From: Dehalococcoides mccartyi
GTDB lineage: Bacteria > Chloroflexota > Dehalococcoidia > Dehalococcoidales > Dehalococcoidaceae
DNA: 64,000 nucleotides
Direction: 5' to 3'
Assembly: GCF_001889305.1 (NCBI RefSeq)
Contig: NZ_CP013074.1
Span: forward strand, 806,001 to 870,000
In this document: positions 15,486 to 21,121 of the stretch, piece by piece
Position numbering within the stretch: the stretch's first letter is position 1
Layout: each line of letters starts with the position of its first letter
Program-made: the position numbers and the translations under genes
The notes under the pieces: model-generated
The model's input: only the letters and a program-made list of their open reading frames with translations
Told to the model about the DNA's origin: nothing
The model's database searches: none

Positions 15486-16076
15486 TCAGTTTTCCAGCAT
15501 ACCTTTGGTGCTGGGGGCAATGCCTTCGCGTCTGGGGTTTATACCAGTAGCTTTGTCCAGTGCCCGTGCCAATGCTTTGAAAAGAGCTTCTGCTTTGTGA
15601 TGGTCATTAGAACCGTAAAGAATGCGGGCATGTAAATTTAGCCGACCCTCTATTGCAAAAGTCTCCAGAAAATGCCTGACTAGGTCCGTGGGAAAACCGG
15701 TAAGGTCATTTTTAGCAAACGGCAAATCCAGCACTGCATATCCCCTGCCGCTCAGGTCCAGAGCTACTGAAGCCAAGGAATCATCCATAGGTACAGTTGC
15801 ATCTGCCATGCGGACAATACCCTTGCGTTCCCCTAACGCCTCGTTAAAGGCTTTACCCAAAGTGAGTGCCACATCTTCCACCAAATGATGTATATCATCC
15901 CCGTTGGCAGAGATATTTATGTCAAATAAACCATGCTTAGCCAGTTGGGAAAGCATATGGTCAAACAACCTGACCCCGGTACACATTTCAGCCTGCCCGC
16001 TGCCATCCAGATTCAGACTAAGGCTTATGGTGGTTTCGGTGGTCTGTCTTTTTATAGATGCTGTTCTACTGGTCAT
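15486..16076 (-). CDS. hisB: Imidazoleglycerol-phosphate dehydratase
   Basis: A 196-residue monofunctional HisB, without the phosphatase domain found in E. coli. The paired metal-binding motifs are present: [16 protein letters not shown] and [15 protein letters not shown] in the first half, and [36 protein letters not shown] in the second. It dehydrates IGP to imidazole acetol phosphate. The reading frame is open to 16097, but ATG 16076 has GGGGGA upstream and begins just after the hisC stop (TAACATG), so it is preferred. It is the last his gene before the terminator. Confidence 0.94.
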
Positions 16077-16077
16077 G

Positions 16078-17166
16078 TTATTCCCCCATTTCCCCAAGCG
16101 CTTTTAACAGTGCGTCTGTATCTTCGGGCTTGCCCACTGAAAACCGCAGGCAGTTTTCCATCATCGGTGCATCAAAGCATCTTACCAAAATGCCCTGTAA
16201 CTCCAGTGCCTGCTGAATGTCTTTTGCCTTGCCTTTAATAAGTTTGCACAGTATAAAGTTAGCCGCAGACGGATAAGGCTTCAGCCAGCTAAATTTGCTT
16301 AGTTCAGTATATAACCGTTTACGTTCATCCACAATCTTTTTTACGGTTTCCAGCATATATTCACGCTGGAGCATAGTCTGGCGGACGGCAGTATCCGCTG
16401 CAATGTTTACTGAATAAGGGTCTTTGATACGTGATAAGTAGTCTGCAATCATCGGCGGGAAAAGCCCGTAACCTACCCGCAGTCCTGCCAGCCCTGCCCA
16501 TTTGGAAAAGGTACGCAGTATCATAAGATTTGGATACTTAGCCATATCCGAAATCATAGTCTGGCCTGTAAACTCGTAATAAGCTTCGTCAACCACGGTG
16601 GGTACGCCCAAATCCAGTATTTGTATTATATCCTCTTTGCTTATGGCTGTACCGGTGGGGTTATTGGGGGCGGCTATAAATATAAGCTTGGTTTTTGGAG
16701 TAAGTGCATTTTTAATGCCGCTGATATTTACATTATAACCGGCATCACGCGGCACATTGACTACGGTTCCGCGGTTCAAATCAGTATAAAATTTATACAT
16801 GGCGAAAGTAGGCGGGCAGTTGATAACCTCATCTCCGGGGTTTATAAACAGCCTCAGCAGTAAGTCTATCAACTGGTCAGAGCCTGCCCCGCAGATAATC
16901 TGCTCCATATTTACGCCGGTATATTCCGCCAGCAAACGGCGGATTTCAAATTGGGTGGCATCAGGGTAGATATGGTACTGGTCAAAGGCAGCCATAGCCT
17001 GCCGTACCGCTGGTGCAGCCCCGTACAGGTTTTCATTGGCATCCAGCTTGATTATCCGGTTTTTTGTCTTTACCAGTTCCGGTGCTTTGCAGGCAGAATA
17101 GCCGGCAAACCCTTCTAGATCTGTCCGCATATATTTTTTCATATCATATGTCATATTAGTTCTCAC
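16078..17166 (-). CDS. hisC: Histidinol-phosphate aminotransferase
   Basis: A 362-residue PLP-dependent class I/II aminotransferase with the [11 protein letters not shown]-terminal motif, [16 protein letters not shown], and the PLP-lysine region [16 protein letters not shown]. It transfers the amino group to imidazole acetol phosphate. The frame opens with GTG at 17166, directly after the hisD stop (TAAGTG); in-frame ATGs at 17154 and 17142 could also be starts, and the family consensus begins close to the latter ([12 protein letters not shown]). It sits between hisD and hisB. Confidence 0.94.
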
Positions 17167-18477
17167 TTATCCCATTCGCTTTAAGGCGGCTTCGGCATGG
17201 CATTCCAGCCCTTCGGCTCTGGCAATAGTGGCAGCGGCTTTCCCCAGCTTTGCCATTTCCTCTTTGCTCACGTTTACAATATCTATATATTTTACAAAAT
17301 CCAGTATATTAAGCGGGGAGCTGAAACGGGCAGTGCCTGAGGTGGGTAAGGCATGGCTTGGCCCAGCTACATAATCCCCCATTACCACACTGGCTTTTTC
17401 TCCGTAGAAGATACAGCCAGCGTGATTTATGCGGGACAAATACTGTTCTGAATCCTTTACCAGCAGGCATAAATGTTCGGCAGCATACATATTGGCCAGC
17501 GTAATGGCCTCGTTCATATTATCCACAACCGCAATCAGCCCGTTGTCCTTTAAAGACTGCCGGATAATATCCTTTCGGGCACAGGTATCGGTTTTTGCTT
17601 CCACGATATCGTTTACTTTGTTTGCCATTTCCTTAGATGTAGTCACCAGTATCGAGGCAGCCAGTGGGTCATGTTCGGCTTGAGCCAGTATATCAGAGGC
17701 ACAATATTCGGCGTTAGCATATTGATCAGCAACTAACAGCACTTCGCTGGGGCCTTGAAGCCCGTCAATGTCCACCACTCCGAATACGGCTTTTTTGGCC
17801 AGTGTAACAAATATATTACCCGGCCCGCATATCTTGTCTACTTTGGGAATAGATTTGGTGCCGAAGGCAAGCGCTGCCACCGCCTGAGCACCGCCGCAGG
17901 CAAATACCCTGTCTACCCCGGCTATATAAGCGGCAGCCAGAGTGGGCGCAGGTATTTTCCCGTCTGCTCCCGGCGGGGTGACCAGTATAATCTCTTTTAC
18001 GCCGGCTTCTTTAGCCGGAATGGCGGTCATCAGCACAGTTGACGGGTAAAAAGCTTTGCCGCCGGGTACATACAAGCCTACCCTTCCCAGCGGGCGGATA
18101 AGCTGCTTGCCCTGCATAATTTCAGCTGCTTTCCAGACAGCCTCTTTCTGAAAGCGGTGATAAGCCCGCACCTGAGCGGCGGCAAGTTTCAGTGCCTCAA
18201 ATAGTTCAGCAGGTATTTCACCAGCGGCCTGTTTTATTTCGGCTGGACTTACCTCAAGTTTTGAAATAGCGGCACGATCAAACTTCAGGGTATACTCTAA
18301 AACAGCTTTATCACCCTGTTTGCGTACATCTGCAATAATACCATTTACAGCTTTTTCGGGGTCAACCCCTAGCCGTCTGGCAAGTTCGGTTCTCTGGGTT
18401 TCGTCCAGAAAAAAACCGGCTTTATCCTGGCGGGAGAGCCTTTTTTCTGCTTGGGCAAACCCGCGGATTATTTCCAT
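17167..18477 (-). CDS. hisD: Histidinol dehydrogenase
   Basis: A 436-residue NAD-dependent zinc enzyme that performs the last two oxidations to histidine. It has the family core VYVPGGKAFYPSTVLMTAIPAKEAG, the CGPGNIFVTLAKK segment, the QAEHDPLAASILVT region with catalytic and zinc residues, and GPSHALPTSGTARFSSPL. Length is normal. It starts seven bases after hisG. The C-terminus reads EGLECHAEAALKR, as usual for the family (His and Glu ligands). Confidence 0.96.
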   Translation of the reverse strand: MEIIRGFAQAEKRLSRQDKAGFFLDETQRTELARRLGVDPEKAVNGIIADVRKQGDKAVLEYTLKFDRAAISKLEVSPAEIKQAAGEIPAELFEALKLAAAQVRAYHRFQKEAVWKAAEIMQGKQLIRPLGRVGLYVPGGKAFYPSTVLMTAIPAKEAGVKEIILVTPPGADGKIPAPTLAAAYIAGVDRVFACGGAQAVAALAFGTKSIPKVDKICGPGNIFVTLAKKAVFGVVDIDGLQGPSEVLLVADQYANAEYCASDILAQAEHDPLAASILVTTSKEMANKVNDIVEAKTDTCARKDIIRQSLKDNGLIAVVDNMNEAITLANMYAAEHLCLLVKDSEQYLSRINHAGCIFYGEKASVVMGDYVAGPSHALPTSGTARFSSPLNILDFVKYIDIVNVSKEEMAKLGKAAATIARAEGLECHAEAALKRMG

Positions 18478-18483
18478 TTTACT

Positions 18484-19890
18484 TTAGGCCTCCAATGCCT
18501 TTTTAAGCATACCTATTACCGTGTTTATCCGTTCGCTCTTGGCGGTGGAAACTACGCTCTGATAGTTGGCTATAACACAGGCGGTAGATTCAAACAAAGT
18601 ATCTATTATTTTCAGATTGTGGCGGGCAATAGTACCGCCGGTTTCGGTATTTTCCACCAGCATATCCGCATCTTCCGGCAGAAAAGCCTCAGTTGCACCC
18701 CAGGTTGGAACAATGCGGTAATGCCCCAAATGGTTGCTTCTGGCGTAAAAGTCAGAAATATTGGTATATTCGGAAGCTATCCGCATTTCGCGGCTGCCGC
18801 AGTAATCTTTCAGTTCGTCCAGATTGGAAACCGGCACGTCGTTATGCACCACCGCCACCAGTTTTACCCAGCCGTATTTCAAATCCAGCAGTTCCTTTAC
18901 CGGGCTGGTCGGGAACTGGTAAAGATGGTCAGTCAGCCAGTCACGCCCGGTAATAGCCAGGTCAAAATTGCCGTTGGCTACCTGTATGGGCATATCCTGG
19001 GGGCGGATTACCTTTACCGCAATGCCGTTTATGCCGAATGCCGGACGGTGATTGCCCGTGGCAGATGGGTAGTCTTCAATAGCTATCCCCGCGGCATCCA
19101 ATATCTTACGGACATGGGGCTGCTGATGCCCGTCAGGCAGTGCCAAACGCACAGTATCATCCGGCATATCCAGAAAAGATGGCTGGCAGCCATTTACTGG
19201 TTCAATCTTAATATCTTCTGCTTTGGGTTCAACATAGCGGCTGATATTTGCCATTACAGATGAAATAGCCCCGCTCAGGTCTTTTTCCTCAAGGCTCTGG
19301 CTGTTGGCTATCAGATAGGCTTTAAAATCCAGTACTTTGGCGATGGAACGCAGATTTTTCTTGGCCAAGTCAGCTTCAGACTTGCGCGGCAGAATAACCA
19401 CTTCGGCAGTATCCGGCGGATAGGCTTCCGCCGAACCCCAAAGCGGGAAAATACTGAAATTTTTAAGCCGCAGTTGCATAGCGAAAGCCTCGGCGATATT
19501 CGGGTATTCACTGGCTATGCGTATACGGGTATTGCAAGCTGAGAGTGCTGCCAAACTATCATATGGGCTGTTTACAGCCGTAGCCGCATATAATGAGCCA
19601 TGCCCGTAGCCCAGATTTTTCAGTTTGACTATATTGCTGGAAGGGTAGCGTGAAGTCAGCTCGGTAAGCCAGTCTGCCCCGCATACACCCAAATCATAGT
19701 TGCCTATGGCCAGCTGAATGGGTATATCCTTCTCGTGAAATATCTTGGCGGACATTTCAGGGTTGGAAACTGATTTAAAGCAGTATATTTTTGCCTTATC
19801 AACGTAACCGTCAAGCCCCCACTGGCTTTTTTCCAGCAGGGCTTTGGTATCACCAAGCAATCTGCCTTTTGGCAGAGCCACTCTAAGCAT
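18484..19890 (-). CDS. hisG: ATP phosphoribosyltransferase, tandem-duplicated HisG fusion
   Basis: About 468 residues, twice the length of the short HisG that pairs with HisZ. It is two HisG catalytic domains in one chain (residues about 4-220 and 249-471, counted from an in-frame GTG at 19899). Both halves keep the G-N-Y/F-D-L...G-x-DWLT and RIASEYxNI motifs. The first half keeps the N-terminal ALPKGRL motif but its PRPP loop is degraded (VVILPRKSEADLAKKNL). The second half has lost the first motif (ALPDGHQ) but keeps the loop (VENTETGGTIARHNL). The protein starts histidine synthesis from PRPP and ATP. The ATG at 19890 has GGTGA upstream and overlaps the hisZ stop. Confidence 0.93.
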   Translation of the reverse strand: MLRVALPKGRLLGDTKALLEKSQWGLDGYVDKAKIYCFKSVSNPEMSAKIFHEKDIPIQLAIGNYDLGVCGADWLTELTSRYPSSNIVKLKNLGYGHGSLYAATAVNSPYDSLAALSACNTRIRIASEYPNIAEAFAMQLRLKNFSIFPLWGSAEAYPPDTAEVVILPRKSEADLAKKNLRSIAKVLDFKAYLIANSQSLEEKDLSGAISSVMANISRYVEPKAEDIKIEPVNGCQPSFLDMPDDTVRLALPDGHQQPHVRKILDAAGIAIEDYPSATGNHRPAFGINGIAVKVIRPQDMPIQVANGNFDLAITGRDWLTDHLYQFPTSPVKELLDLKYGWVKLVAVVHNDVPVSNLDELKDYCGSREMRIASEYTNISDFYARSNHLGHYRIVPTWGATEAFLPEDADMLVENTETGGTIARHNLKIIDTLFESTACVIANYQSVVSTAKSERINTVIGMLKKALEA

Positions 19891-21121
19891 CTTCTTCACC
19901 GCTTAGCAGGCATATTACCTCGGCCTGATTTTTAAACTCTGTGGTTTTGTCTTCAATCAGGTCTGTTACTTCATAGCTGTCAGCCGCTTTAACCGTAACT
20001 GCCCAGCCATAAGCGGCCGTATCCACACCGGGGTAAAAAAGCTCAGCGCTTATGCCGCACTCGCGGATAAGGTTAGCCATTTCGTAGGCGTTTTTAAGGT
20101 TATCACCTTCATATTTTATAAGTATTTTTTCTTCTACCATGTCATACATATCTTCGGCATCTATCATAGGTATAAGGCGGTTCAGATACAAAGCAAACCC
20201 GGCTGCCGGTTTATCAGGACCGCCCAGCAGGGGGATAAGCTTGTCATAGCGGCCGCCGCCGCCCACGTGTTCGCCGTTTACGAACAAATGGAAAATTACC
20301 CCTGTATAGTATTCAAAACCTTTGCCTGAGGCAAGGTCTATCTGGTAGCTGACACCCAGCTTATCCAGTATATCTACCCCTGCAATAAAATCATTCAGGG
20401 GTTCTTCCAGGTCACCGCCGGCAGCCCCGGCCATGGCCATAACGTTTTTCAGGAAAGCGGCTGAAGTGCCTTTGTTTTCCATCAAGAGTTTCAGGGTGCG
20501 GAAAAGTTCAGGCTTTTCGGCCTCAAGTCTGCTCATCAGAGCAACGTCCCCGTCCAGCAGTTGGTCAAATATCTTATGCTGTTCATCAGTATTCGGCTCA
20601 AGCTGGGCCAATACCGCTTTTATAAGCTGGGCATGTGAAAGCCTTAGCTCCACATCTTCAAAACCCAGTCTGGACAGGGTTTCCAGTGCCAGTGTGATTA
20701 ACTCGGCATTAGCTTCCGAACCGGTAACGCCGATAAGCTCGGCTCCTAGCTGCCAATTTTCGCGGGATTTTTTGCCTGTTTCATCAAAGCGGAAAATATT
20801 GGAGGTATAGCACAAACGGGCAACTTCCATTTCACGGAGGTTATCTATATAAAGTCTGGCAGCCGGTATAGTGCCGTCCGGCCGCAGTACCACCCTTTCG
20901 CCGCTCCAACCGTCCCAGTCCAAAAAGGAATATACCCTTTTAAGCATTTGAGGGGTAAGTGTGCCGCTTGAGGTAAATAGGCTGAGGTATTCCAGCATGG
21001 GGGTACGCACTTCTTCGTAACCCCATGTAATGCAACTGTCATGGAAAATGCTCTCTATATACCTGAACCGAAGCATATCTTCGGGCAATAAATCACTGCA
21101 GCCTTTACAACGCGCAATCAT
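19883..21121 (-). CDS. hisZ: ATP phosphoribosyltransferase regulatory subunit (HisRS-like)
   Basis: A 412-residue paralogue of histidyl-tRNA synthetase. It shows class II synthetase motifs (GCSDLLPEDMLRFRYIE; motif 2-like YTSNIFRFDE; motif 3-like GGGGRYDKLIPLLGG) and a C-terminal anticodon-domain-like region. It lies first in the his operon and overlaps hisG, which is what HisZ does: it activates short HisG and senses histidine. A true HisS cannot be fully excluded, but the context and a degenerate second half favour HisZ. Confidence 0.88.
   Translation of the reverse strand: MIARCKGCSDLLPEDMLRFRYIESIFHDSCITWGYEEVRTPMLEYLSLFTSSGTLTPQMLKRVYSFLDWDGWSGERVVLRPDGTIPAARLYIDNLREMEVARLCYTSNIFRFDETGKKSRENWQLGAELIGVTGSEANAELITLALETLSRLGFEDVELRLSHAQLIKAVLAQLEPNTDEQHKIFDQLLDGDVALMSRLEAEKPELFRTLKLLMENKGTSAAFLKNVMAMAGAAGGDLEEPLNDFIAGVDILDKLGVSYQIDLASGKGFEYYTGVIFHLFVNGEHVGGGGRYDKLIPLLGGPDKPAAGFALYLNRLIPMIDAEDMYDMVEEKILIKYEGDNLKNAYEMANLIRECGISAELFYPGVDTAAYGWAVTVKAADSYEVTDLIEDKTTEFKNQAEVICLLSGEEDA

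Follow-up and report, generated by a model that had tools for sequence, protein, structure and literature searches.

A conserved tandem HisG fusion in Dehalococcoidia, probably a covalent pseudo-dimer with a single working site

The histidine gene cluster of Dehalococcoides mccartyi encodes two HisG domains in one chain, and the two do not keep the same residues: the PRPP loop is intact only in the second half (copy 2), while the basic residue corresponding to Arg56 of the Psychrobacter arcticus enzyme (PaHisG) is found in the first (copy 1). We consider it likely that this tandem is a covalent, asymmetric pseudo-dimer activated by HisZ, in which copy 2 holds the sole working site and copy 1 is a pseudoenzyme partner that completes it. 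The gene was found in a window of 64,000 nucleotides, the whole stretch of DNA that was analysed (contig NZ_CP013074.1, positions 806,001 to 870,000), where it forms part of a his cluster on the minus strand, in the order hisZ, hisG, hisD, hisC and hisB-like. The genes are as follows, in window coordinates.

19883..21121, minus strand: hisZ, 412 aa, HisRS-like regulatory subunit (Pfam tRNA-synt_His), immediately upstream of hisG and overlapping its start by 17 bases
18484..19899, minus strand: hisG-hisG tandem fusion gene, 471 aa, from the ORF, its translation and two HisG matches in one frame
17167..18477, minus strand: hisD, downstream of the tandem in the same cluster
16078..17166, minus strand: hisC-like gene, downstream in the same cluster
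15486..16097, minus strand: hisB-like ORF (imidazoleglycerol-phosphate dehydratase) at the end of the cluster, assigned by reading the sequence

The tandem starts at the GTG at 19899, with an alternative ATG at 19890. A preliminary description, made from the window alone, had proposed two HisG domains in one chain with HisZ encoded immediately upstream, and both points are borne out: Pfam HisG (3.3e-64) and NCBIfam hisG (2.7e-80) each match two stretches of the chain, the halves share 29% identity across 217 columns, and hisZ occupies the position described. A search of the 1.52-Mb genome confined the HisG matches to the tandem gene.

To follow the two halves beyond the window, we compared 150 distinct tandems with 59 single HisGs, numbering residues as in PaHisG and taking the key residues as named in PMC9734150. 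The window protein is laid out as follows.

19258..19887, minus strand: copy 1, residues 5-214 (HMM boundaries), HisG fold, predicted pseudoenzyme half, pLDDT about 90 or above over most of its length
19858..19878, minus strand: ALPKGRL of copy 1, residues 8-14, present here; KGR is missing in 43 of the 150 tandems
19789..19791, minus strand: Lys37 of copy 1, equivalent to Arg56 of Psychrobacter HisG by alignment and by an independent profile-profile alignment
19354..19395, minus strand: destroyed PRPP loop of copy 1, ILPRKSEADLAKKN, residues 169-182
19153..19257, minus strand: linker, residues 215-249, with low pLDDT at about residues 225-242
18520..19152, minus strand: copy 2, residues 250-460 (HMM boundaries and predicted fold), HisG fold, predicted catalytic half
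19120..19143, minus strand: ALPDGHQQ of copy 2, residues 253-260, with DGH in place of KGR
19042..19062, minus strand: ATGNHRP of copy 2, residues 280-286, a reworked Arg56 loop with Gly at position 56
18616..18657, minus strand: PRPP-binding loop of copy 2, VENTETGGTIARHN, residues 415-428

ALPKGRL without a PRPP loop in copy 1 and ALPDGHQQ with the loop in copy 2 are thus present in the window protein as first described. The complementary loss that had been read from them is real as a partition of residues, but the pair that marks it is the PRPP loop of copy 2 and the basic residue at position 56 of copy 1, not KGRL against ENTETGGT. When the halves are aligned with each other and with other HisGs, the catalytic residues are neither kept nor lost in both: the loop residues T180, G181 and T/S183 are present in 150/150 copy-2 halves, and an intact loop occurs in 0/150 copy-1 halves. 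The equivalent of Arg73 is found in every copy 2 (150/150) versus 18/150 copy-1 halves, and the equivalents of D94 and E163 in copy 2 are each present in 150/150. Position 56 shows the reverse pattern, being basic in 140/150 copy-1 halves and in 3/150 copy-2 halves, compared with 52/59 single HisGs. In copy 1 it is Arg in 134 chains, Lys in 6 (the window protein, two genomes of the same genus and three others) and non-basic in 10. The independent profile-profile alignment placed both the Lys/Arg of copy 1 and the Gly of copy 2 on Arg56 of PaHisG. Copy 2 has conserved arginines two and three positions past position 56, and the loss of Arg56 in this half is therefore partly a question of register. 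These arginines form part of an RRP motif, conserved at positions 58-60 of a loop that resembles neither copy 1 nor canonical HisG, both in the window (19042-19062) and in its relatives.

The KGR motif behaves differently. Only two of the 59 single HisGs contain it; Ser is the commonest residue at their position 32, and the KGR arginine is missing from most of the phylum's canonical single HisGs. With 57/59 single HisGs lacking it, KGRL was rejected as a marker of activity, and the loss of KGR cannot be taken as a sign of inactivity. The DGH that replaces it in copy 2 is nearly invariant (Asp in 149/150, His in 150/150, so that the position of Arg32 is His in all chains), which argues for a constrained replacement rather than decay.

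Strong purifying selection acts on the two halves alike, with Ka/Ks between 0.014 and 0.074 where it is defined. Mean identity is 49% within copy 1 and 58% within copy 2, suggesting that copy 1 evolves faster. The same asymmetry in 150 distinct tandems, the occurrence of the tandem in about 187 genomes and these low ratios in both halves exclude chance, a sequencing artefact or a recent duplication. The chain combines homologous halves, active-site residues that are intact in one of them, and selection on both, the marks of a fused pair of active and pseudoenzyme halves.

The reading that we favor starts from the dimer of the short-form enzyme. In Psychrobacter HisG, Arg56 crosses the dimer interface from its own subunit and reaches the PRPP pyrophosphate in the site of the other; the R56A variant is 42-fold slower and the R56K variant 24-fold slower, with no rescue by HisZ, and arginines 32 and 56 partially compensate for each other (PMC9734150). 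We propose that the homodimer of short-form ATP phosphoribosyltransferase has become a single covalent and asymmetric chain, in which copy 2 would be the only working site for PRPP and ATP. Copy 1, its PRPP loop gone, would have been retained since a HisG site depends on a partner subunit; its basic residue, in the place of Arg56, would most likely extend across the interface and contact the pyrophosphate leaving group in the copy 2 site, provided that the halves dock as canonical subunits do. Copy 1 would also offer a second face to HisZ, which would still activate the enzyme and bring the histidine feedback. For a single site in copy 2, Arg56 has to come from copy 1, and that of copy 2 itself is dispensable; this matches the observed pattern at position 56, and the absence of Arg56 from copy 2 argues that this half pairs with copy 1 rather than with the copy 2 of another chain. 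There would then be one site per chain instead of two per canonical dimer, so that the obligate pseudo-dimer with fewer sites suggested at the outset agrees with a fusion that is conserved and paired with HisZ.

Several observations go against this mechanism. The window protein and its genus carry at position 56 of copy 1 a Lys, which is a poor substitute in Psychrobacter; either the Dehalococcoides enzyme has made this Lys work or another residue has taken over. In addition, the position of Arg32 in copy 2 is occupied by His in every chain. The ten tandems whose copy 1 is non-basic at position 56 further indicate that such a residue is not absolutely required, and the nearby arginines of copy 2 make its own loss of Arg56 less clear-cut.

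The predicted structures are consistent with a fixed pairing of the two halves. AlphaFold2 gave a pLDDT of 90.4 and a pTM of 0.86 for the window protein, with poor order only at about residues 225-242, and values of 93.9 and 0.89 for a deep-branching relative. The alignments behind both models consisted of tandems only, and scores this high point to a defined placement of the halves relative to each other. A Foldseek search matched PaHisG chains at target TM scores of 0.84-0.91 over one half; as a test of docking the fold search was set aside, since single-chain matches that span one half are uninformative on the interface.

Copy 1 might instead be a regulatory pseudo-site that no longer binds PRPP but binds a nucleotide or effector (ATP, AMP or PR-ATP) and thereby controls copy 2, a role that may coexist with the donation of a residue in trans. 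Mammalian adenylyl cyclase provides a parallel, its degenerate second site having a control role. Several residues of the copy 1 pocket are kept, with Glu (133/150) or Asp (12/150) at the position of Glu163 and Lys30 retained in 131/150, and the selection acting on this half is strong. The same conservation could nevertheless be structural, and KGR, a potential phosphate holder, has been lost from 43/150 copy-1 halves; we regard a regulatory pseudo-site as improbable. We are equally reserved about the fuller picture of a single-chain heterodimer in which a live site is completed by its dead twin, the old pocket of the twin serves as an effector site, and HisZ stoichiometry and feedback are both changed; this combination is possible, though we doubt it.

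A plainer alternative holds that copy 1 is only a scaffold, which would hold copy 2 in its fold and against HisZ, position 56 being basic for the sake of folding and not of catalysis. The ten non-basic chains would fit such a role, as would the Lys of the window protein, given its poor performance in Psychrobacter. On the other hand, the distribution of the basic residue, 140/150 in copy 1 against 3/150 in copy 2, is the partition predicted by a trans-catalytic role, and we find it unlikely that copy 1 is a scaffold and nothing else.

The preliminary description had itself proposed a composite site, made from the KGRL loop of copy 1 and the PRPP loop of copy 2. The literal complementarity of the window protein favors this idea, and so does the fact that every tandem has at least one basic residue at positions 32 and 56 of copy 1 (0/150 with neither; hypergeometric P of 0.064), the two positions whose arginines partly compensate for each other in Psychrobacter. 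This leaves some room for a contribution of the copy 1 KGR. Yet KGR is missing from copy 1 in 43/150 tandems and from 57/59 single HisGs, and the association between positions 32 and 56 reflects few independent changes and is not significant in a phylogenetic test; coupled loss of the two positions was therefore rejected as support for a role of KGR despite the P value, and a composite site of this kind seems quite unlikely to us. It is very improbable that the tandem serves some purpose other than histidine synthesis, or represents a duplicate in decay or an assembly artefact: one genome does have the halves as two separate genes, but these share the asymmetry and fall within the fused group, and the tandem is the sole HisG of its genome, lies in a his cluster with HisZ, and recurs in about 187 genomes with Ka/Ks far below 1.

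The link to HisZ extends well beyond the window. A HisZ-like gene lies immediately upstream in nearly all tandems with enough flanking sequence, and the HisZ linked to tandems has lost the GxER of HisRS motif 3 in every tandem row listed and departs from the R259 motif. In the window genome, hisZ, which lacks both the GxER and the R259 motif, is a second HisRS paralogue beside a separate HisS. Among 18 genomes checked, those with a tandem had both HisS and HisZ, and those with only a long-form HisG (e.g., G089, G196 and G057) had one HisRS-like gene. The window hisZ falls under both NCBIfam cut-offs (213.4 versus 271.65 bits for hisZ, 214.8 versus 286.75 for hisS), and with such scores it may escape automatic naming. 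The regulatory domain of the long form, HisG_C (PF08029), gave no match in the window protein or in two other tandems (L095 and L105), and was present in all eight of the single HisGs that were scanned in the class and the phylum. Within family f65, some genomes have a tandem with HisZ and others a long-form HisG, as expected if the two are functionally equivalent. Two of its genomes have both, a tandem with its HisZ and, elsewhere, a long-form HisG that carries HisG_C (L095 and L108 in G138, L105 and L109 in G251); in these, the replacement of one form by the other is apparently in progress. Some single HisGs of the class also have a HisZ-like gene upstream (in the set L051-L060), and L053, the one scanned among these, has a HisG_C match as well, an unusual pairing of a long-form HisG with HisZ.

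The tandem is best filed as a variant of the short form. It shares with the HisGS-HisZ systems of Psychrobacter arcticus, Acinetobacter baumannii, Thermotoga maritima and Lactococcus lactis the HisG catalytic fold with its PRPP loop, an adjacent HisZ (by presence and motifs) and the lack of HisG_C. It differs from them in that the loop is found in copy 2 only and the basic counterpart of Arg56 in copy 1 only, and in that 471 aa and two non-equivalent domains take the place of a single homodimeric domain of about 200-230 aa, which would halve the potential sites per HisG pair. The long-form HisGL of the E. coli, Campylobacter and Mycobacterium type belongs to the same reaction family and is the alternative enzyme in related genomes, but it has a C-terminal HisG_C and no HisZ, whereas the tandem has HisZ and no HisG_C match. 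Class III adenylyl cyclases (C1-C2) and other fused enzyme/pseudoenzyme dimers likewise arose by duplication within a chain, with one site at a pseudo-symmetric interface and the partner retained; fold and reaction are unrelated in the cyclases, and the likeness is one of mechanism only.

Internal duplication and fusion are also known from the gene elongations of hisA, hisF, hisB and hisD, which unlike the present case are ancient and near-universal. In the parts consulted, papers on fused and elongated his genes give no case for hisG (PMC1963479, PMC7284861), and one of them describes the remaining his genes as free of internal repeats (PMC7284861). We found no description of a tandem HisG in the titles and abstracts of the open-access papers retrieved, and no open-access paper that joins Dehalococcoides with ATP phosphoribosyltransferase; the tandem is provisionally undescribed. 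HisG is a model of allosteric activation in which an arginine of the neighboring subunit has been proposed to complete each site, and the subunits of a homodimer cannot be mutated separately. The tandem separates the two roles within one chain, where simple point mutations could probe, one by one, what acts in cis and what in trans, whether a dimer is needed, half-of-the-sites behavior and HisZ stoichiometry. Fusion would also have led here, in a central pathway, to a clear instance of subfunctionalisation, and one that is fixed in much of the class to which the organohalide-respiring Dehalococcoides belongs.

In an unrooted tree, copy 1, copy 2 and the single HisGs each formed one group, with support of 100, 99 and 89 by a quick method for which deep branches are provisional. 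A root placed among the single HisGs would derive both copies from one duplication, a history that we likewise regard as provisional. In G074, a single fragmented assembly, the halves are two overlapping genes (L267, G074:C322, 1829-3194) in the order hisZ-hisG1-hisG2-hisD-hisC, with the asymmetry of the fused proteins. They nest among the fused halves (support 80) and the spacer falls short of the usual linker length, so that separate genes were rejected as the ancestral state; the arrangement is probably a later, secondary split of the fused gene.

The fusion is widespread in the class of the window and, in our sample of the phylum, restricted to it. In the order of the window, 39/41 genomes contained a HisG. 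Two matches were recorded in 37 of these 39, for the most part within a single frame of 460-500 aa. When class genomes were searched with a full-tandem model, the matches fell into two groups, scored as tandem at E < 1e-70 and as single at E > 1e-40, giving about 187 tandems and about 90 singles among 277 Dehalococcoidia genomes, that is, the fusion in about two thirds of those bearing HisG. The survey of Chloroflexota that had been called for placed all full-length tandem matches of the phylum sample (38/38) inside this class and detected no tandem in about 340 genomes of other classes (best E value 1e-37 with the same model), whose HisGs, among the matches listed, aligned with only the copy-2 half. 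A scan across 84,980 species gave 328 loci, of which the best 80 carried Dehalococcoidia, Dehalococcoidales, Dehalococcoides or Chloroflexi/Chloroflexota labels, bar two records titled Deltaproteobacteria (L171 and L199). These two contain a Dehalococcoidales-like tandem with about 55% identity and are probably mislabelled assemblies. Beyond these best 80 loci, tandems may also occur in other phyla. Several fairly complete genomes of the class (G055, G088, G133, G151, G259 and others) gave zero HisG matches, which suggests histidine auxotrophy or assembly gaps. One further genome, G234, has two differing single HisG genes (L110 and L111), one of them on a long branch of the tree.
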